Assembly (NCBI GenBank): GCA_022841245.1
Contig: JALHRW010000034.1
Coordinates: 1 to 33,046 of the forward strand
DNA length: 33,046 nucleotides
Direction: 5' to 3'
Source: Planctomycetota bacterium
GTDB lineage: Bacteria; Planctomycetota; UBA11346
Shown: one piece after another, positions 21,628 through 31,423 of the stretch
Layout of the letters: the number at the start of each line of letters is the position of its first letter
How positions within the stretch are numbered: position 1 is the first letter of the stretch
Translations under genes and position numbers: made by a program
The notes under the pieces: model-generated
The model's database searches: none
What the model was told of the DNA's origin: nothing
Seen by the model: only the letters and a program-made list of their open reading frames with translations

Positions 21628-21972
21628 AGGGGGGTCGTAGCCATCGGGCGGTGGGCGTCCATGTCGGCAGGCCTCCGGATTCGACGGCCGCGGCTGCCAC
21701 GGCGTCGGTCATAACCTGCACGCATGGCTGCACGTCAGCTGCTAACGACCAGACCAGGATGACCGACACAACGCATTGTCGCATTGACCGTTGGCACCTC
21801 GGGCGCATTGCCGGTTGAGGCGCCGTCCCCGTCGGTAGTGTGCTACCTTCGCGCGCGGGACGTCCGCGGCGATGGCGGTTGCGTTGCGGCCGTTGCATGC
21901 CCCCGGTGAGATGTCTGCCCGCAGGGGTTGATGCCACCCCTTGTATGGAAGACCTCGCATGGATCTCTGCGG
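21628..21972. other. 345-base divergent intergenic region
   Basis: Lies between the starts of the NifU-like gene and the nitronate monooxygenase gene. I see no gene in it. It holds a short inverted repeat GGTAG-TGTG-CTACC (21834-21847) and possible but unconvincing promoter hexamers (TTGACC at 21785, TTGAGG at 21815). A minus-strand ATG near 21710 opens a frame that continues antisense through the NifU gene and does not look coding. Confidence 0.5.
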
Positions 21973-23442
21973 ATGAGCGACTGCCCGGACGCGAAGCCCA
22001 CTGCCGCTGCCTTGGCCCGTCGGCTGCCCGCCGTCATCCAGGGTGGGATGGGTGTCTCCATCTCCAACTGGCGTCTGGCCAAGGCCGTATCGCAGGCCGG
22101 CGGCCTCGGGGTGATCTCCGGCACCGGTCTCGACCGGGTCGTCGCCTACCGCCTGCAGGAGGGTGACGCGGGCGGCCATCTGCGCCGCGTCATAGCCCGC
22201 TTCCCCATCCCTGCGGTCGCCGAACGCATCCTCAACCGCTGGTACGTCGCAGGCGGCATCACCCGTCCGGGCGCTTACCGCGCGACCGCCATGGTCGAGC
22301 ACGAGCCGCGCATCGACACCCTCGAACTGCTGGTGGTGGCCAACTTCGCCGAGGTCGCCCTGGCCAAGGAAGGGCACGACGGCGTCGTCGGCATCAACCT
22401 GCTGGAGAAGGTGCAGTCGCCGAATGTGGCCTCGCTCTATGGAGCGATGCTTGGTGGAGTCGACGCCGTACTGATGGGCGCCGGCATCCCGCGCGAGATC
22501 CCCGGAGTGCTGGACCGGCTCGCTGCGCACCAGGAGGCCAGCCTGATCCTCCGCGTCGAGGGCGCCCTGCCTGGCGAGACGACGCGCATCCGCTTCGATC
22601 CGCGGTGCATCGTCGGCGACATCCCGCCGCCGGTGTTCCGCCCGCCGTTCCTCGCCGTCATCACCTCCGATATTCTCGCCCAGGCGCTGCTGCGCTCGAC
22701 CGATGGCGGCGTCGACGGCTTCGTCGTCGAAGGTCCGACCGCCGGCGGCCACAACGCCCCGCCGCGCAACCATAACGAACCGCTCAACGCCCGTGGCGAG
22801 CCGGTCTACGGACCGCGCGACCACGCCGATCTGGTCAAGCTGGCCAAGCTCGGCCGTCCGTTCTGGCTGGCTGGTGGCTTCGGCACCCCCGAAGGTCTGG
22901 CCAAGGCGCAGGCCGCCGGCGCGCAGGGCGTGCAGATCGGCACCATCCTCGCGCTGAGCGAGGAGTCGGGTCTGCGGCCCGACCTCAAGGCGCAGGTCCT
23001 CGGCCTGGTTCGCGATGGCAAGGCCGGGGTCTTCACCGACCGTCTCGCCTCGCCCACCGGCTTCCCCTTCAAGGTCGCCGAGGTCCCGGGCACGTTGTCG
23101 GATCCCGCGGTCTACGCCTCGCGCACGCGCATCTGCAACCTCGGCTACCTGCGCATGCCCTATCGTCTGGAGAACGGCAAGCTCGGCTGGCGCTGCGCTG
23201 CCGAGCCCGAAGCCGCCTTCATCGCCAAGGGCGGCGACCCGGCCGAACTGGTCGGGCGCAAATGCATCTGCAACGCCCTGATGTCGACTGCCGGCATGCC
23301 GCTGATCACCCCCGAGGGTGGCCGCGAGCTGCCGCTGGTGACTGCCGGCGACTGCGTGGCCAAGCTGGCCGACGCGGTGCCCAGCCTCGATGGCTACAAG
23401 GCCGCCGACGTCTGCGGACTCGGGACGCCGGTCCGGACCTGA
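21973..23442 (+). CDS. Nitronate monooxygenase-family (2-nitropropane dioxygenase-like) FMN protein
   Basis: A 489-residue cytoplasmic TIM-barrel flavoprotein. It starts with VIQGGMGVSISNWRLAKAVS followed by QAGGLGVISGTGLD, the standard N-terminus of the family. Later come GVDAVLMGAGIPREIPG, VEGPTAGGHNAPPR (with the His of this motif), WLAGGFGTPEGL and GAQGVQIGTILALSEESGL, the FMN phosphate-binding part. Typical members have 310-360 residues; the extra C-terminal ~130 residues (LENGKLGWRCAAEPEAAF, GRKCICNALMSTAGM) with several cysteines mark a longer subgroup common in environmental bacteria whose reaction is not known. FabK-like enoyl reductase activity is an alternative. Start ATG 21973 gives MSDCPDAKPT; an earlier start at 21928 adds unlikely sequence. 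It converges with the esterase gene, three bases apart. Confidence 0.85.
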   Translation: MSDCPDAKPTAAALARRLPAVIQGGMGVSISNWRLAKAVSQAGGLGVISGTGLDRVVAYRLQEGDAGGHLRRVIARFPIPAVAERILNRWYVAGGITRPGAYRATAMVEHEPRIDTLELLVVANFAEVALAKEGHDGVVGINLLEKVQSPNVASLYGAMLGGVDAVLMGAGIPREIPGVLDRLAAHQEASLILRVEGALPGETTRIRFDPRCIVGDIPPPVFRPPFLAVITSDILAQALLRSTDGGVDGFVVEGPTAGGHNAPPRNHNEPLNARGEPVYGPRDHADLVKLAKLGRPFWLAGGFGTPEGLAKAQAAGAQGVQIGTILALSEESGLRPDLKAQVLGLVRDGKAGVFTDRLASPTGFPFKVAEVPGTLSDPAVYASRTRICNLGYLRMPYRLENGKLGWRCAAEPEAAFIAKGGDPAELVGRKCICNALMSTAGMPLITPEGGRELPLVTAGDCVAKLADAVPSLDGYKAADVCGLGTPVRT

Positions 23443-23445
23443 CGG

Positions 23446-24555
23446 TCAGCCGGGCAGTTCGGCTGCGGTCGCCGCGAAGATCGCGCTCCAATCCGCCGGG
23501 CAGAGGCAGTGCGGCCCGACCCGATACGCGTAACGCAGCACCTTGCCATCCGGACCCGAACCCAGTGCCGGCATGGCCGCAGGCGGCGTAGCTCCGCTGC
23601 CGAGCAGCCGCCACGCCGGGGCCGCGGCCTGCAGAGTGCGCAGCTGCCCGCACTGATCCGCCCAGTCATCGTCCTCGGCGTTGGTCAGCAGCACGGGGCG
23701 CGGCGCGATGCAGGCCAGCAGCTGATGCATGTCGACCGGCACCGCCTGCGCGTCCGGGCCGAGGCGAGGATGGAACCAGTGGGTGAAGGACAGGATTTGC
23801 GCCAGCGTTTCAGCGCCTGGCGAAGTCTCGCGGAAGGTGCCAGCGCCGCCGCTGCCGCTGCCGTTGGCCACCACCATGGCCAGGCGCGGATCGCGCGCCG
23901 TGGCCAGCAGTGCGGTCTTGCCCAGGCGCGAGTGCCCGACCGAGACCAGTCGCGACGCATCGACGCGGCGGTCACGCACCAGCAGGTCGACCAGGCGCGA
24001 GAGCAGCCACGCCCAGGCCGAAATGGCACCGGCATCGGCGGCGAAGCCGCCATCGCGCCACGTCCGTGACAGCGCCGGCCCGTCCGCGGTGTCGGGTTCG
24101 AGCTCGCCATAGAAAGCGGTGCACAGGCCCCAACCGCGCTTGAGGATGCCCTCAACGCACCAGCTGTAGCCAGCGCGGCCACGGTCGGATTGCAGGGTCG
24201 CGCCGCGGGAGCTGATCCCGCTGGGCTGCGGCACCTCATTGGCGCCGACGATCGAGTGGTTGCCAAGAAAGTTGAGGCCGACGTAGCACGGCGCCGCCGC
24301 CACGCCGCGTGGCAGGCAGAGCAGCACCGCCAACGGCTTGACGCCTGGCCACACCGTGATCCGCCAGTGCTCCCAGGTCCCGTGCTTCAGCTCGCCGCCG
24401 GCCAGGCGTTCGGCGCTGATCGCCGGCGCCGCCGGAGCATGGCCGTAGACATGGCTGGCGAGCAGCTCAAGCAAGGCGGGGCGGAAGACCTCGCGCCAGG
24501 TGGTCGGATCGACGGCACGGCGGCCGTCGGGCAGGGTCAGGACGTCGGGTAGCAT
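23446..24555 (-). CDS. CE15-like glucuronoyl esterase / alpha-beta hydrolase
   Basis: A 369-residue alpha/beta hydrolase without a signal peptide. The nucleophile lies in VSVGHSRLGKTALLA (Ser about residue 209), the 'GxSRxGKxAL' motif of CE15 and related acetyl-xylan esterases. It also has GLNFLGNHS, an oxyanion-side motif, NGSGSGGAGTFRE after the nucleophile, FTHWFHPRL, and a C-terminal His in YRVGPHCLCPADW. CE15 enzymes cleave the ester between glucuronoxylan side chains and lignin; members without export signals may use other esters. ATG 24555 has GGAGG eight bases upstream, whereas the in-frame ATG 24570 touches it, so the shorter form is preferred. Beside it lies the copy of the metH 3' end. 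Confidence 0.82.
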   Translation of the reverse strand: MLPDVLTLPDGRRAVDPTTWREVFRPALLELLASHVYGHAPAAPAISAERLAGGELKHGTWEHWRITVWPGVKPLAVLLCLPRGVAAAPCYVGLNFLGNHSIVGANEVPQPSGISSRGATLQSDRGRAGYSWCVEGILKRGWGLCTAFYGELEPDTADGPALSRTWRDGGFAADAGAISAWAWLLSRLVDLLVRDRRVDASRLVSVGHSRLGKTALLATARDPRLAMVVANGSGSGGAGTFRETSPGAETLAQILSFTHWFHPRLGPDAQAVPVDMHQLLACIAPRPVLLTNAEDDDWADQCGQLRTLQAAAPAWRLLGSGATPPAAMPALGSGPDGKVLRYAYRVGPHCLCPADWSAIFAATAAELPG

Positions 24556-24575
24556 GCCGGCATCCTCCAACCTGC

Positions 24576-24619
24576 GCTCACGGATTGAAGCGCTTCGCCC
24601 CGGGTGATGCCCGATCAGG
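24576..24619 (+). repeat. Left copy of the metH 3'-end direct repeat
   Basis: These 44 bases align to 26827-26871 with four mismatches and one deleted base (40 of 45 columns identical by hand). The right-hand copy is the last ~14 codons of metH plus its stop. In this copy a one-base deletion breaks the frame, although the last residues still read PGAKRFNP-stop, against PGAKYFNL-stop in MetH. Weaker similarity may continue to about 24660. Confidence 0.8.
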
Positions 24620-24681
24620 CCTTGGCCGGTTCTGCGACTGCGTGCCGAGGACGTCTTCGTCGACGGGTCGCCACGAACGCG

Positions 24682-26625
24682 CTACTTAGGTCCAAGCACT
24701 ACGGCATTGCCGAGGATCGCAGTTTCCCATTGCCAATAGGGCGTCTTCAGATTGGCGAATTCGAAGCGGAGCTTTTTCACATTGGTCAGGTCGAGATCAA
24801 TGGCATCCGCCTTCTGCCCCATATCGCGCTGAGAGTTGTCCGCCTTGGTCACGGCGACCTGCTTGCCATCAAGAAGGATTTTCACCTCGATGCGGGCCCA
24901 GGCTCCGCTACGCACGCCGACATCCAGCAGCAGACGGGTGAATTTCTGGTCGATATCGTATTCGAGGACGCCCAGCTTCTGGGTGTTCTTGAGGCGGACG
25001 CCGAACCCGTACGGCACAGGCAGGTGCACGCGCCGAGTCTCCGGATTCGGTTCATAGCCATCCACATGGAGCATCAACGGTGCCCCTCGCTTGTCCGGCA
25101 CCGTGCTGGTGTTGGTCACGAGTTCCATCGGCGCATCATCGATCGTGGCGATGGAGCTTTTCAGGTCCGACAAGAGCGTGGCCGCGGCAGGCTTGGCGCC
25201 CATGCGAACCGCCTGTTCGACCACGGCCGAGCGATTCCCCCAGGCGTCCACAGCCTGAACGCCGACTTTCAGCTGCTGATCCCAGGAGTAGTTCGACAGG
25301 ACGATTTCAGGTTTCTCGGTGCGGTATTGCAGGTCGCCATCGACATACACGTAATAGGAGTAGATGCCGCTCGCATCGTTCGACGGCTTCCAGCTCAATT
25401 CAGCGCAATTTCCGGCACGCACGACCTTCGACTGGACATCCGTCGGAGCCGACGGTGGCACCTGCTCGACCTTGCCCCAGCGATTGAGCGCCAGGCGGCC
25501 GAACAGGTATGGCCCGCAACCATGTTGCATATTGCTGCTGAACAACACATCACTGATCGGGTCGTAGGTGAAACCATGGGCCCATACCATATCGTTGAGC
25601 GTTATGGGCAACTGGGCCAGCACATGCCAGGTCTCACCCCCGTCCAGCGTTTCCACAACCCTGTCCAAGCACAGCAGCAGCATATGCTTCTCGTCCTTGC
25701 CGAACACCGGCCCCGAGCGCACGAGCCGCTTCGTCATCCATTCGGCATCGGCGGGGAAGGGCTTGCCGACGACGGTCCACGTCAGGCCTTTGTCTGCGCT
25801 GGTGTAGATGCCGGTGGAATGCAGCCAATAGACCTTGTTCTTGAAACGCACGCTCATGCCGTCGAATCTGCCGGGTTTCCCGTCGGCTCCGAGGCGCGTC
25901 GGCTGCGGTACCTCCGTAAACGTCTTGCAGGAGTCCTCGGTACGCACCAGCTTCGGGCCTTGGAACAACATGACGTCATCGTCCATCACGGCGATGCTCA
26001 GCGTATTGATCTGCTGGTTGATCTCATCCGGGAATTTGGTGAAGCTGTCTCCGCCGTCGCGACTGATATGCATCGCCGGACGCGAGCAATGATGCCGGCC
26101 CACGATCAGCTTCCCATCCCCATCCCAGTTGATTTGACCATCTTCGAATCCATATGGGATATTGAACTTCAGATGCTTCCAGGTCGCACCGCTGTCCAAT
26201 GTGTATCCGCTCTGGTTCGATGAGAAGACCCTCACTTTCGAACCATCGGGGTGGGCGAAGATGGCGGTGGTCGATTCATTGAAGCCCCACACCAGCGCCT
26301 CCTTGTCGATCACCTCGTACGTCTGCCCGCAATCCGTGCTGACCCACACCATGCCCGACAGGACATACAGCCGGCCATTGGTCCGATCGACGCTGAACTT
26401 CGGAGCCGGAATTGCTCCCCCATCGAGCCGCTTGCCGGGGAACTGCTTTTTGGCCTGCTCATACGCCGCCGCCAAGCGCGGGGCCAGGGCGGTCCATTGG
26501 GCGGGCGCCGGCGGAACCCAACCCTGCATCGAGAATGGTTGTTCGCCGCCGTGCAATGCGAGCGGCATGAGCGAGAGGCATGCTGCGCTGCTGACCAGAT
26601 GGCGCAGAGATAGGTTCCAGAGCAT
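24682..26625 (-). CDS. Secreted BNR/Asp-box beta-propeller protein with Fn3 and NPCBM-like domains
   Basis: A 647-residue exported protein. The signal peptide covers about residues 1-27 (SAACLSLMPLALHGG). The propeller (about 70-390) shows at least six Asp-box motifs of the form SxDxGxTW: STDCGQTY (96-103), TLDSGATW (142-149), SRDGGDSF (188-195), and later TEDSCKTF, SADKGLTW and TLDGGETW. This is the fold of sialidases and Vps10-like proteins; sialidase arginines cannot be confirmed. A fibronectin-type III domain follows (PPSAPTDVQSK to VQAVDAWGNRSA), and the last ~130 residues resemble NPCBM carbohydrate-binding domains (LGVLEYDIDQKFTRLLLDVG, VKILLDGKQVA, KKLRFEFAN). It probably binds or trims glycans outside the cell. 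Base composition is clearly less GC-rich than all neighbours. ATG 26625 follows AAGGA at a good distance. Confidence 0.8.
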   Translation of the reverse strand: MLWNLSLRHLVSSAACLSLMPLALHGGEQPFSMQGWVPPAPAQWTALAPRLAAAYEQAKKQFPGKRLDGGAIPAPKFSVDRTNGRLYVLSGMVWVSTDCGQTYEVIDKEALVWGFNESTTAIFAHPDGSKVRVFSSNQSGYTLDSGATWKHLKFNIPYGFEDGQINWDGDGKLIVGRHHCSRPAMHISRDGGDSFTKFPDEINQQINTLSIAVMDDDVMLFQGPKLVRTEDSCKTFTEVPQPTRLGADGKPGRFDGMSVRFKNKVYWLHSTGIYTSADKGLTWTVVGKPFPADAEWMTKRLVRSGPVFGKDEKHMLLLCLDRVVETLDGGETWHVLAQLPITLNDMVWAHGFTYDPISDVLFSSNMQHGCGPYLFGRLALNRWGKVEQVPPSAPTDVQSKVVRAGNCAELSWKPSNDASGIYSYYVYVDGDLQYRTEKPEIVLSNYSWDQQLKVGVQAVDAWGNRSAVVEQAVRMGAKPAAATLLSDLKSSIATIDDAPMELVTNTSTVPDKRGAPLMLHVDGYEPNPETRRVHLPVPYGFGVRLKNTQKLGVLEYDIDQKFTRLLLDVGVRSGAWARIEVKILLDGKQVAVTKADNSQRDMGQKADAIDLDLTNVKKLRFEFANLKTPYWQWETAILGNAVVLGPK

Positions 26626-26826
26626 ACGCGGTTCCTTGTACGTGATTCGTGGTCGTCGTACTCGAATGTGGCGATGGCCTGTTTGTGACTTCCGAAGACT
26701 CAACTCGCAGCGTGGCGTTCGGCGTGGGATCGGAAATGAATAAATAGGTTTATGGACCGCAAGAAAACCACATCGTGGATTGGAGCCGTGCTCTCGCTCG
26801 CGGCTCGGCGCGGCCGAGTCAACACA

Positions 26827-26871
26827 GCTCACAGATTGAAGTACTTCGCCCCGGGATGATGCACGATCAGG
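26827..26871 (+). repeat. Right copy of the metH 3'-end direct repeat
   Basis: This is the native 3' end of metH on the minus strand, including the stop at 26829-26831 and encoding IVHHPGAKYFNL. It is repeated in the same orientation at 24576-24619, on the far side of the low-GC segment. Confidence 0.8.
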
Positions 26872-29800
26872 GCACTGGTGCTCTGCTCGGGCACCAGCTG
26901 GTGTTCTTCGCTGAGCTTGATGCCGGCCTCCTCCCACTGCAGCAGGCGCTGCAGGATGAGCTGGTCCTCGAGGCGCGGGCAGGCGGGATAGCCGAAGCTG
27001 TAGCGGCTGCCCTGATACCCCTGGGTGAACAGGTCGGCGATGTCCATGGCGTCGTCGCCAGCGATGCCCAGCTGCTGGCGCACGCGCTTGTGCCAGTATT
27101 CGGCCAGTGCCTCGGCCATCTCGACGCTGAAGCCGTGGGCGTAGAGGTACTCCTGGTAGCTGTCGGCGGCGAACAGCCGCTCGGTCCAGCGCGAAGCCGC
27201 CTCGCCCATGGTGACGACGTGGAAGGCGATGACGTCGCGGGCGCCATTGGCCCAGGCGGCGGCCGGGATGAAGGCCTGCTCGTCAGCAAGCGGAGCGGCG
27301 CCGCGCGGACGGAACCAGTCGGCGATGCACAGGTGGCGGTTGGAGTCGTCGGTCTGCCGCGGCAGGTGGAAACGCGCGGCTTCGGCGCCGCTCACCGGGT
27401 CGAAGAGGATGACGTCATTGCGCTCGCTGGCGCAGGGCCAGTAGCCGTAGACCACCGCCGGCTGGAGATGCCCGTGCTTGGCCGCCTCGGCGATCAGCCG
27501 CTTGAGCACCGGCGTCGCCTCGCGGTCGACCATCTCCTGCCACTGCGCTTTCGACAGGGTCTGGCCCTGGCGGAAGCCCCACTGGCCGCGGAACAGGGCG
27601 TTGGGGTTGAGGTAGTTGGCGATCGTCGCCAGTTCGAGCTCGTCGGCGCGGACGATGCGGCGACCCCAGAACGGCGGCTGCGGGATGCGCGGCGGCGGCG
27701 GGGTGTTGGTCGGGACGTAGGCCTCGCCGGCCTTGAGCTTGGCCTCCATCTCCTCGAAGGCGGTCAGCCTGGTGCGTTCACGCGGCGCACGGGTGGTCAG
27801 GGTGCGCTTCTCCTCCGGCACCTGGCCGCACAGCTCCTCCATCAGGTTGAGGCCCTCGAAGGCGTCGCTGGCGTACCACACCTGGCAGTCGTCGCGCGCG
27901 CGCTGGCCGCGGCGGTAGGAGGCGCGCAGGTCGTGCTCGACGTAGGCGCGGTTGAGCGCCGCGCCGCCGCACACCACCGGCAGGCGGTAGCCGCGCTCGC
28001 ACATCCACTCGAGGTTCTCCTTCATCACCACCGTCGACTTGACCAGCAGGCCGGACAGGCCGATGGCGTCGGGGCGATGCTTCTCGACCGCGGCGACGAT
28101 GTCCTCGATCGGCTGCTTGATGCCGAGGTTGATGACGCGGTAGCCGTTGTTGGTCAGGATGATGTCGACCAGGTTCTTGCCGATGTCGTGCACGTCGCCG
28201 CGCACCGTGGCCAGGACCAGGGTGCCCTTCTGGCTGCCGGCGACGCGCTCCATGCGCGGTTCGAGGTGCTTCACCGCCAGCTTCATCGTCTCGGCCGACT
28301 GCAGCACGAATGGCAGCTGCATCTTGCCTGAGCCGAACAGTTCGCCGACCGTCTTCATGCCGGCGAGCAGGAACTCGTTGATGATCTTCAGCGGCGGGTG
28401 GCTCAGCAGCGCCTCGTCGAGATCCTTGTCGATGCCGACCTTCTTGCCGTCGATGATGCGCTTGGCCAGCCGCTGCTCGATCGGCAGGGCGGCGATCTCC
28501 GCCTCGGACTGCACCGGGCCGGTGGCCTTGGTGAAGTGGTTGACGAAGACGTGCAGCGGATCGTGGGTGGGCGTGCGCCGGTCGTAGATCAGGTCGCGCG
28601 CCATCGCCACCTCGTCGGCGGGGATGCGCTCGATCGGGATGATCTTCGAGGCGTTGACGATGGCGGAGGTCAGGCCGCGCTTGATCGCCTCGTCGAGGTA
28701 GACCGAGTTGAGCACCTGGCGGGCGTAGGGCTTCACCCCGAAGCTGATGTTCGACAGGCCGAGGATGTAGCCGGCGTCGGGCAGGCGCTGCTTCAGCAGC
28801 TCGATCGCCTCCAGCGTCCACAGGCCGAGCTTGCGCGTATCCTCGTCGCCCTGGGTGATGGGGAAGGTCAGCAGGTCGAAGAGGATCGAACTGCCGGGGA
28901 TGCCGTGGCGTTCGGTGATCAGCTTGTAGAGGCGCTCGGCGATGGCGAGCTTGCGCTCGACCGACTTGGCCATGCCGGCCTCGCGGTCCTCGTCGATGGT
29001 CAGCGCGACCAGCGCGGCGCCGTGGCGCTTGGCCAGCCGGCAGACCTTGTCGAGCTTCTCCTCGCCGTCCTCCAGATTGACCGAGTTGATGATGGCGCGG
29101 CCACCGAGGCGCTTGAGCGCGATCTCCATCACGTCGCTCTGGGTCGAGTCGACCATGATCGGGATCTGCACGGCGGTGGCGAAGCGGCCCATCACCGCGT
29201 CCATGTCCTTGCGCTCGTCGCGGCCGGTCCACGCCACCGACACGTCGAGCACATGGCAGCCTTCGGCGACCTGCTCCTGGGCGAGGTGGACCATGCCGTC
29301 GAAGTCGTCCTTGAACAGCAGTTCGCGGAAGGCTTTCGAGCCGGTGGCGTTGGTGCGTTCGCCGACGATGAGCAGGCCGGTGTCCTGCTTGATCGTCGCG
29401 GCGGTGTACAGGCTGGAGAGCTGGGCCGGGAAGCTGTCGCGGCGCTTCTGCCCGGGGGCGGCGCCGTGCAGGCGGTCGGCTACCGCCTTGATGTGCGCCG
29501 GCGTGGTGCCGCAGCATCCACCGATCAGATTGACGCCGTAGTCCTTGACGAAGCGCTCGTGCCAGTGCGCCAGCTCGTCTGGGGTGAGGTCGTAGACCGC
29601 CTTGCCGCCTTCGTTGCGCGGCAGCCCGGCGTTGGGCAGGCAGGAGACCCAGCGCGTGGCGCCGGCCGCCAGCGTGCGGATGTGCGAGTCCATCAGGTCG
29701 GGGCCGGTGGCGCAGTTGACGCCGACGATGTCGACCGGGAGCGACTCCAGTGCGGTCAGCGCGCCGGCGATGTCGGTGCCGGTCAGCATGGTGCCGAACG

Positions 29801-30509
29801 CCTCGATCGTCACCTGGGCCTGGATCGGCACCTCGCGGCCGAGGTCGGCCATGGCCGCGCGGGCGCCGAAGATGGCGGCGCGCACCTGCAGGATGTCCTG
29901 CGCCGTCTCGATCAGGATGAGGTCGACGCCGCCGCGCAGCAGGCCGCGGGAGCCGACCCGATAGCTTTCGACCAGCGCATCGAACGCGATGTGGCCGAGC
30001 GACGGCATCTTGGTGCCGGAGCCCAGCGCTCCGGCGGCGAAGCGCGGCCGCTGCGCAGTCGAGAAGTCGTCGCAGGCGGAGCGCGCGGCGCGGCCGGCCA
30101 GCTCGGACAGCTGCTCGGCCTGGTCGGCGAGGGCGAACTCGGCCAGGGCGTGCGGGACGGCATTGAACGAGTGCGTCTCGACCACGTCGGCGCCGGCTTG
30201 CAGGTAGCGGCGGTGGATGGTGCCGGCGATCTCCGGCCGGGTACGATGGATCAGCTCGACGCAGCCGTCCTGGGCGCCGGTGCCGAGGTCGCTCGGCGCG
30301 AGATCGAACTTGAACAACTCGGTGCCGAAGCCGCCGTCGTAAATCAGCACCCGCTCGCGCAGCGCGGCGAGGAAGGGGAACTTCGCGGCCCGCGCGTCGC
30401 GGCGGTAGCCGAGGTGGTTGACGACCTCGCGGGGGTCGAGGCGCGGCACTCCGCCGTGGTGCGGGCAGAGGGGGTCGCAGATGTGGCCGGGCTGGTCGTG
30501 GGAGATCAT
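26829..30509 (-). CDS. metH: Cobalamin-dependent methionine synthase
   Basis: A full-length 1226-residue cytoplasmic enzyme that transfers a methyl group from methyltetrahydrofolate to homocysteine through cobalamin. All four modules are present in order. The homocysteine module (about 45-345) has the zinc cysteines in VGVNCATGPD and LIGGCCGTTPAHI. The folate module (about 370-630) has LIVGERTNATGSKAFRELL and PIMVDSTQSDVMEIALK. The B12 module (about 650-900) has the DVHDIGKNLVD motif, whose His ligates cobalt. The reactivation module to the C-terminus has RYSFGYPACPRLEDQ, which binds SAM, and ends HHPGAKYFNL. A short N-terminal extension contains CDPLCPHHGG. ATG 30509 overlaps the regulator stop (ATGA); a longer frame to 30731 is antisense-like noise. 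Part of the 3' end is duplicated at 24576. Confidence 0.97.
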   Translation of the reverse strand: MISHDQPGHICDPLCPHHGGVPRLDPREVVNHLGYRRDARAAKFPFLAALRERVLIYDGGFGTELFKFDLAPSDLGTGAQDGCVELIHRTRPEIAGTIHRRYLQAGADVVETHSFNAVPHALAEFALADQAEQLSELAGRAARSACDDFSTAQRPRFAAGALGSGTKMPSLGHIAFDALVESYRVGSRGLLRGGVDLILIETAQDILQVRAAIFGARAAMADLGREVPIQAQVTIEAFGTMLTGTDIAGALTALESLPVDIVGVNCATGPDLMDSHIRTLAAGATRWVSCLPNAGLPRNEGGKAVYDLTPDELAHWHERFVKDYGVNLIGGCCGTTPAHIKAVADRLHGAAPGQKRRDSFPAQLSSLYTAATIKQDTGLLIVGERTNATGSKAFRELLFKDDFDGMVHLAQEQVAEGCHVLDVSVAWTGRDERKDMDAVMGRFATAVQIPIMVDSTQSDVMEIALKRLGGRAIINSVNLEDGEEKLDKVCRLAKRHGAALVALTIDEDREAGMAKSVERKLAIAERLYKLITERHGIPGSSILFDLLTFPITQGDEDTRKLGLWTLEAIELLKQRLPDAGYILGLSNISFGVKPYARQVLNSVYLDEAIKRGLTSAIVNASKIIPIERIPADEVAMARDLIYDRRTPTHDPLHVFVNHFTKATGPVQSEAEIAALPIEQRLAKRIIDGKKVGIDKDLDEALLSHPPLKIINEFLLAGMKTVGELFGSGKMQLPFVLQSAETMKLAVKHLEPRMERVAGSQKGTLVLATVRGDVHDIGKNLVDIILTNNGYRVINLGIKQPIEDIVAAVEKHRPDAIGLSGLLVKSTVVMKENLEWMCERGYRLPVVCGGAALNRAYVEHDLRASYRRGQRARDDCQVWYASDAFEGLNLMEELCGQVPEEKRTLTTRAPRERTRLTAFEEMEAKLKAGEAYVPTNTPPPPRIPQPPFWGRRIVRADELELATIANYLNPNALFRGQWGFRQGQTLSKAQWQEMVDREATPVLKRLIAEAAKHGHLQPAVVYGYWPCASERNDVILFDPVSGAEAARFHLPRQTDDSNRHLCIADWFRPRGAAPLADEQAFIPAAAWANGARDVIAFHVVTMGEAASRWTERLFAADSYQEYLYAHGFSVEMAEALAEYWHKRVRQQLGIAGDDAMDIADLFTQGYQGSRYSFGYPACPRLEDQLILQRLLQWEEAGIKLSEEHQLVPEQSTSALIVHHPGAKYFNL

Positions 30510-31423
30510 GGCTTGTCCGCGGTAAGCAGGATCGATTGGAAGCGCGGGGCGCGCGCCTCGGGCGGGAGGTGGACCAGGCGCGGCTTGGCGCACCACGGCT
30601 TGAGCCAGGCGCGCAGGTCGGCGTCGCGGAAGCCGCGGTGGCGGTGGCCGTAGCGCGCCGCCTCGTCGTGGTCGTGCTCGGCCAGGGTCAGCAGCAGCAG
30701 GCGGCCGTGCGGGGCGAGCACCCGGCCGCATTCGCGCAGCACGTCCTGCGGCGCTTCGACGTACTGCAGCGACTGCAGCAGCAGCACGGTGTCCTGGCTG
30801 GCGTCCTTGAGCGGCAGGCGCTCGCCGGCGGCCTCGATCCAGGTGACGTTGCCCAGCCCCGCTTCGCTGCAGCGTGAACGTCCAGCGGCGATCATCGCCG
30901 GCGATGGATCGATGCAGGTCAGGTTGGTGGATGCGGATGCCAGCAGCCCGGCCAGCGCGCCGTCGCCGGCGCCGATGTCGCAGCAGCGGCCGAAGCGACC
31001 GGCAGCGGCGAAGGCGTGCGCCAGGCTGTCCCAGGTGCGGCCGGGTGCGTATTCGCGGTGCAGCTGGCCGGCGACGCGCGCGACCCAGTCCTGGCCGGTG
31101 GCGGCGCGGTGGCGTTCCAGCGAGCGCTGGTCGGCGCCGATCGCCGGATCGTTCTGCGACAGCTGGCGGGCGGCGGCCCAGGCCAGGCGGAGGGTCTCCG
31201 GCGCGTCATCGCGCAGGCGGTAGCGGTGGGCGCTGCCCTCGGCGACATCGTGGACCAGGCCGGCCTGCTTGAGCTTGGCGAGGTGCCCGCTGATCGAACT
31301 CTGGCCGAGATCGAGGACGGCGGTCAGTTCGGCAACGGTCAGGGGCTCGTGCTCCAGCAGGTGGAGCAGGCGCAGGCGCGTCTCATCAGCGAGGAGGCGG
31401 AGGGATCCAGCACAGGCGGGCAT
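30506..31423 (-). CDS. ArsR-family regulator fused to a SAM-methyltransferase-like domain, SahR-like
   Basis: A 305-residue protein. Residues 5-75 are an ArsR winged helix: LADETRLRLLHLLEHEPLTV, AELTAVLDLGQSSISGHLAK (recognition helix), LKQAGLVHDVAEGSAHRYRL. Residues ~125-300 are a class I methyltransferase fold with motif I CCDIGAGDGALAGLL (148-161), TCIDPSPAMI and the motif IV-like LLLQSLQYV. This architecture and overlap with metH match SahR, described in Proteobacteria as a regulator of the methyl cycle that senses S-adenosylhomocysteine. The likely role here is to relieve repression of metH when SAH rises. ArsR-type metal cysteines are not evident. It is co-translated with metH (ATGA), and a perfect palindrome overlaps its predicted promoter. 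Confidence 0.85.
   Translation of the reverse strand: MPACAGSLRLLADETRLRLLHLLEHEPLTVAELTAVLDLGQSSISGHLAKLKQAGLVHDVAEGSAHRYRLRDDAPETLRLAWAAARQLSQNDPAIGADQRSLERHRAATGQDWVARVAGQLHREYAPGRTWDSLAHAFAAAGRFGRCCDIGAGDGALAGLLASASTNLTCIDPSPAMIAAGRSRCSEAGLGNVTWIEAAGERLPLKDASQDTVLLLQSLQYVEAPQDVLRECGRVLAPHGRLLLLTLAEHDHDEAARYGHRHRGFRDADLRAWLKPWCAKPRLVHLPPEARAPRFQSILLTADKP

Follow-up and report, generated by a model that had tools for sequence, protein, structure and literature searches.

A relic copy of the metH 3' end flanks an apparently acquired secreted-protein gene in a Planctomycetota genome

Gene content of the metH locus

The window analyzed here is a complete 33,046-nt contig (C34) of a Planctomycetota bacterium, from an assembly of 5.73 Mb in 548 contigs (88% complete, 5.6% contamination). 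As can be seen in Table 1, it carries metH, whose start we place at the M of MISHDQPGH, and, on the same strand, a BNR gene, a short second copy of the metH 3' end and a CE15-type gene, beyond which lies an NMO-type gene on the opposite strand.

Table 1. Features between the NMO-type gene and metH (window coordinates)
Feature	Coordinates	Strand	Evidence
NMO-type gene, genus-conserved, left edge of the non-conserved stretch	21928..23442	+	71-72% DNA identity in G001 and G003
CE15-type (glucuronyl esterase-like) gene without N-terminal signal peptide region	23446..24555	-	GCE_fung; alignment with 16 homologues
Left repeat copy: relic of the metH tail, carrying a 1-nt deletion and non-synonymous substitutions	24576..24619	-	BLAST, tail comparison
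Spacer of 62 bases from BNR stop to relic	24620..24681	-	No significant metH similarity
Apparently acquired gene: 647-aa BNR/sortilin-like + Fn3-like + NPCBM protein, probably secreted	24682..26625	-	Pfam, GC, codon data
BNR upstream region; just past the metH stop it includes the hairpin-like CTCGGCCGCGCCGAG	26626..26826	-	Sequence
Right repeat copy: functional metH 3' end and two bases past the stop	26827..26871	-	BLAST
metH, cobalamin-dependent methionine synthase, functional copy	26829..30512	-	Pfam S-methyl_trans, Pterin_bind, B12-binding, Met_synt_B12

The final 42-43 bases of metH, stop codon included, together with the next two bases, occur twice in the same orientation, 2.25 kb apart. 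The two copies are identical in 40 of 45 aligned columns (88.9%, one gap, E = 5e-7 by BLAST), which is exactly the count that an earlier note on this DNA had obtained by hand for the last ~44 bases of the gene. A chance origin of this repeat is excluded; the left copy has a local score of 32, the highest in the window, the next best place scores 15, and the maximum among 60 shuffles is 17. Misassembly at the repeat is unlikely, the longest exact stretch common to both copies being ~12 bases. A gapped pattern of the metH end, searched against the whole 5.7-Mb assembly, returned only the two known copies, and a genome search with a 28-mer of this end, allowing up to three mismatches, returned the functional end only.

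The functional metH gene shares 86, 75 and 73% full-length identity with its counterparts in three genomes of the same genus. It has a GC content of 69.2%, a GC3 of 0.948 and a CAI-like score of 0.79, the last of which is inflated since metH is itself one of the three window genes that make up the reference set; its last 20 codons, too few to be used, have a GC3 of 0.80. Because the genus signature EHQLVPEQ is present just upstream of the repeat, and comparison with the metH genes of relatives reveals no identity break approaching the end of the gene, the functional metH end looks native, and a foreign origin for it was rejected. As a separate observation, the metH gene of one relative (G003) looks mosaic, with a DNA identity to the present genome of ~0.56-0.77 over the first ~400 codons and ~0.9 over the next 200, a step that is absent from G001 and G002.

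The enclosed BNR gene and its paralogue

The only intact ORF between the repeats encodes a protein with Pfam matches to Sortilin/BNR (Asp-box-like repeats) and NPCBM, a Fn3-like stretch that matches chitinase A1 (1k85) and, as read by eye, a likely signal peptide. The longest ORF in this frame would encode 751 aa from a GTG at 26937 and begins within metH but in another frame; translation likely starts at the ATG at 26625, which has AAGGAA ahead of it. The region between this ATG and the metH stop displays neither an intrinsic terminator nor a convincing sigma-70 site, and no RNA family matched above its curated threshold around the locus. The composition of the gene departs from that of metH, with a GC content of 59.8%, a GC3 of 0.767 and a CAI-like score of 0.44, and in 500-nt windows the GC fraction is 0.57-0.62 within the segment versus ~0.70-0.72 on either side. 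The description in the earlier note of a single secreted BNR/Fn3/NPCBM gene, less GC-rich than its surroundings, is confirmed by these measurements.

No full-length counterpart of the BNR gene was found in the 22 other genomes of the family that were searched, and 392 genomes of the phylum yielded a single full-length relative, a paralogue that belongs to this very assembly. A search for a viral or plasmid source yielded no relative in IMG/VR or PLSDB. The earlier note had allowed that relatives might carry the gene at the same place with normal composition, which is not the case, as they lack it there. Because of its foreign composition and the lack of any full-length counterpart in the family and phylum genomes, apart from its own paralogue, the BNR segment looks acquired.

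The paralogue (C9:43771-45738) is 65% identical, and comparison of the two genes (dN 0.24, dS 0.87) points to purifying selection. At the DNA level the two are similar only within the gene; common flanks were sought and rejected, since only short, chance-level matches occur outside it. The paralogue lies in a tract (C9:42100-57000) with a GC fraction of 0.54-0.65 versus 0.70, which begins directly after tRNA-Val/tRNA-Asp, and it adjoins a divergent AraC-type regulator, followed by pseudopilin-like (N-methylation) genes. No displaced tRNA end was found downstream of the tRNA-Asp up to the end of that contig. Judging from these comparisons, the gene family seems to have been acquired and then maintained, the window's copy being the more GC-adjusted of the two. 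Both paralogues have the motif GCAA(N)AAAACCACATNG upstream of them (window 26759-26775, + strand; C9:43690-43709, + strand), in opposite orientation relative to the BNR genes, and it has no other occurrence in the genome. It is possibly a regulator site, although the pattern was built from these two sites, which are therefore not independent evidence.

The left copy and the breakdown of synteny

The left copy reads GLIGHHPG before a 1-base deletion shifts the frame. Relative to the functional end, it shows V>G, Y>R (two bases) and L>P replacements, one change in a bordering codon and one silent change, and the majority of its differences raise the GC content. It is thus a relic and not a second functional metH end. 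When compared with 18 metH ends from the family, the relic fits that of its own genome best (alignment score 33, the next best being 22), which probably dates the separation of the two copies to after the split of the lineage from the nearest relative compared. The earlier note had considered that the left copy might belong to a longer, decayed second metH, and a piece of metH tail in the correct orientation is what the loss of such a gene by deletion could leave behind. This origin is extremely improbable: similarity to metH upstream of the relic's 45 columns is not significant (p = 0.18 and 0.37), which rules out a longer decayed metH in any detectable form, and genomes of the same genus possess one full-length metH only, their further matches being short domain matches.

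On the other side of the relic, the ATG of the CE15-type gene is 22 bases past the relic's stop. The encoded protein retains GHSRLGK and other core motifs, and lacks both the signal peptide and the NYDExxVP start that are found in most of 16 homologues, its head being missing precisely at the end of the relic. The 1-base deletion leaves the CE15 reading frame uninterrupted across the relic as far as the BNR stop codon (window 24555-24681, - strand), in frame with GLIGHHPG, the first part of the metH tail.

Gene order is not conserved across this stretch. In the two closest relatives (G001 and G003), similarity stops at the end of the NMO gene, which has no CE15 gene beside it, and metH is followed by a lipoprotein gene that in the present genome is found on another contig (C3), beside tRNA-Leu. 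The two genes between NMO and metH, CE15 and BNR, are lineage-specific, with no close orthologue in the genus. The suggestion in the earlier note that metH would directly abut CE15 in relatives without the segment was consequently not borne out, the lipoprotein gene being found after metH instead. No such empty site was seen in relatives, which is a weak test with four genomes of the genus. From these comparisons, the locus is a synteny breakpoint that has undergone at least two changes, and a single event would not account for both the headless CE15 and the relocated lipoprotein gene.

One reading of this breakpoint is that the relic and the BNR insertion have nothing to do with each other, an earlier rearrangement having fused part of the metH end with the headless CE15 before the resulting block landed by the metH-BNR pair. 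That CE15 lacks its signal peptide and N-terminal motif right where it meets the relic would fit, as would the broken synteny on both sides of the CE15-BNR stretch. We nevertheless consider it very unlikely, as it requires two independent events at the same gene end and neither intermediate is seen in any relative.

Possible origins of the arrangement

A local duplication during break repair represents the other serious rival to the account that we favor: the end of metH would have undergone a staggered break or a template switch in which BNR was captured and the last 45 bases were copied on both sides, much like a long target-site duplication. That the two ends have the most recent common ancestry of all the tails compared is in keeping with this, and duplication at a metH end does occur, since in another genome of the family (G012:C468) the last ~12 bases of metH plus downstream sequence are duplicated 125 bases on (54 columns, 96%). 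That repeat, however, encloses no gene and for the most part lies beyond metH, which makes it a different event, and the 45-base length of the repeat in the window, far above that of ordinary transposase target duplications, counts against this origin as well. It is possible, if on balance unlikely.

The earlier note had interpreted the segment as an integrative element that targets the metH 3' end, and this stands in part. The geometry fits, with a direct repeat of the target end flanking the segment and the target restored. As described for Islander (PMC4383910), tDNA islands likewise have a restored target gene and a displaced fragment that marks the far end of the foreign DNA, a hallmark of islands at gene 3' ends, among which are also trmE islands such as SGI1 (PMC8409611). 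The segment could thus be the remnant of an integrase-type element that rebuilt the metH end from its own att and whose integrase has since been lost, or a non-autonomous islet that was mobilized in trans, a role open to any of the 22 matches to the tyrosine-recombinase family (PF00589) in the genome. The rest of the interpretation is not supported. The sole enclosed gene encodes no recombinase, as the earlier note had recognized, and neither an integrase (no PF00589 match) nor a tRNA is present on the 33-kb contig. In contrast to the 3'-end islands, the metH locus has a single gene in just 2.25 kb and a diverged repeat, and it is a single case for which no empty site was found. Other islets flanked by metH ends, which the earlier note had proposed to look for, were found neither in the genome, where the searches returned no further copy of this end, nor at the other metH loci of the family that were examined, where no gene-enclosing metH-tail repeat, and hence no recurrent use of the site, was seen. 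Since the functional metH end also looks native, an integrase remnant is improbable, and there is only a slight chance that the segment is a non-autonomous single-gene cassette with the metH 3' end as its attachment site, rebuilding that end and moved in trans by a resident tyrosine recombinase.

The account that we favor, and to which we give an even chance, is that a single gene was acquired through illegitimate recombination, one-sided and anchored by homology, which restored metH and left its old tail behind as a scar. The incoming DNA, most likely from a close relative, would have carried the low-GC BNR gene behind a metH 3' end. Its metH end would have paired by homology with the resident metH, the obvious anchor, and its other end would have joined illegitimately ~42 bases before the resident metH end. 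The new end would then have replaced the old one, keeping MetH intact, and the old 45-base tail, displaced 2.25 kb downstream, would have lost selection and decayed. The repeat itself, the decayed condition of its left copy, the deviant composition of the BNR gene, the lack of that gene in the relatives searched and the loss of synteny are observed; in which direction things happened, from which donor, and by which one-sided mechanism (homology-facilitated illegitimate recombination, or a repair process equivalent to it) is our inference. One-sided recombination needs no integrase and would leave a native, short relic and a functional end continuous with the rest of metH. What is found at the locus is indeed an orphan, native relic of a gene end with an abrupt non-homologous border, similarity stopping 45 columns in, next to a lineage-specific, low-GC gene on a contig with no tyrosine integrase, and with a CE15 that is headless at the relic junction. 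On the other hand, the four genomes of the genus include none with metH directly before CE15, nor one with metH-BNR and no relic, and the signs of more than one event at the breakpoint also count against this account. Taken alone, the 45-base relic is equally compatible with one-sided recombination, local duplication and integration by an integrase.

Events of this kind are already known. At Vibrio T6SS effector loci and at Rhs loci, incoming modules leave displaced 3' ends, which have been attributed to homology-facilitated illegitimate recombination (PMC5361080). As in C-terminal displacement in these loci, the metH locus would combine a homology anchor in a conserved gene and a new 3' part with the orphan relic found downstream, with no integrase. 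Here, in contrast, a housekeeping gene was restored unchanged, the cargo is a separate secreted-protein gene, and the donor and recipient states are reconstructed. Most likely, then, this is an ordinary acquisition scar beside metH and no new kind of mobile element. It would mean that an accessory secreted-protein gene can be added beside a core gene in Planctomycetota without a recognizable mobile element, a short gene-end relic being the sole trace. A single case does not establish that such relics are common, but if they are, displaced tails, sought by scanning core genes, would mark acquisitions that escape integrase-based island finders.
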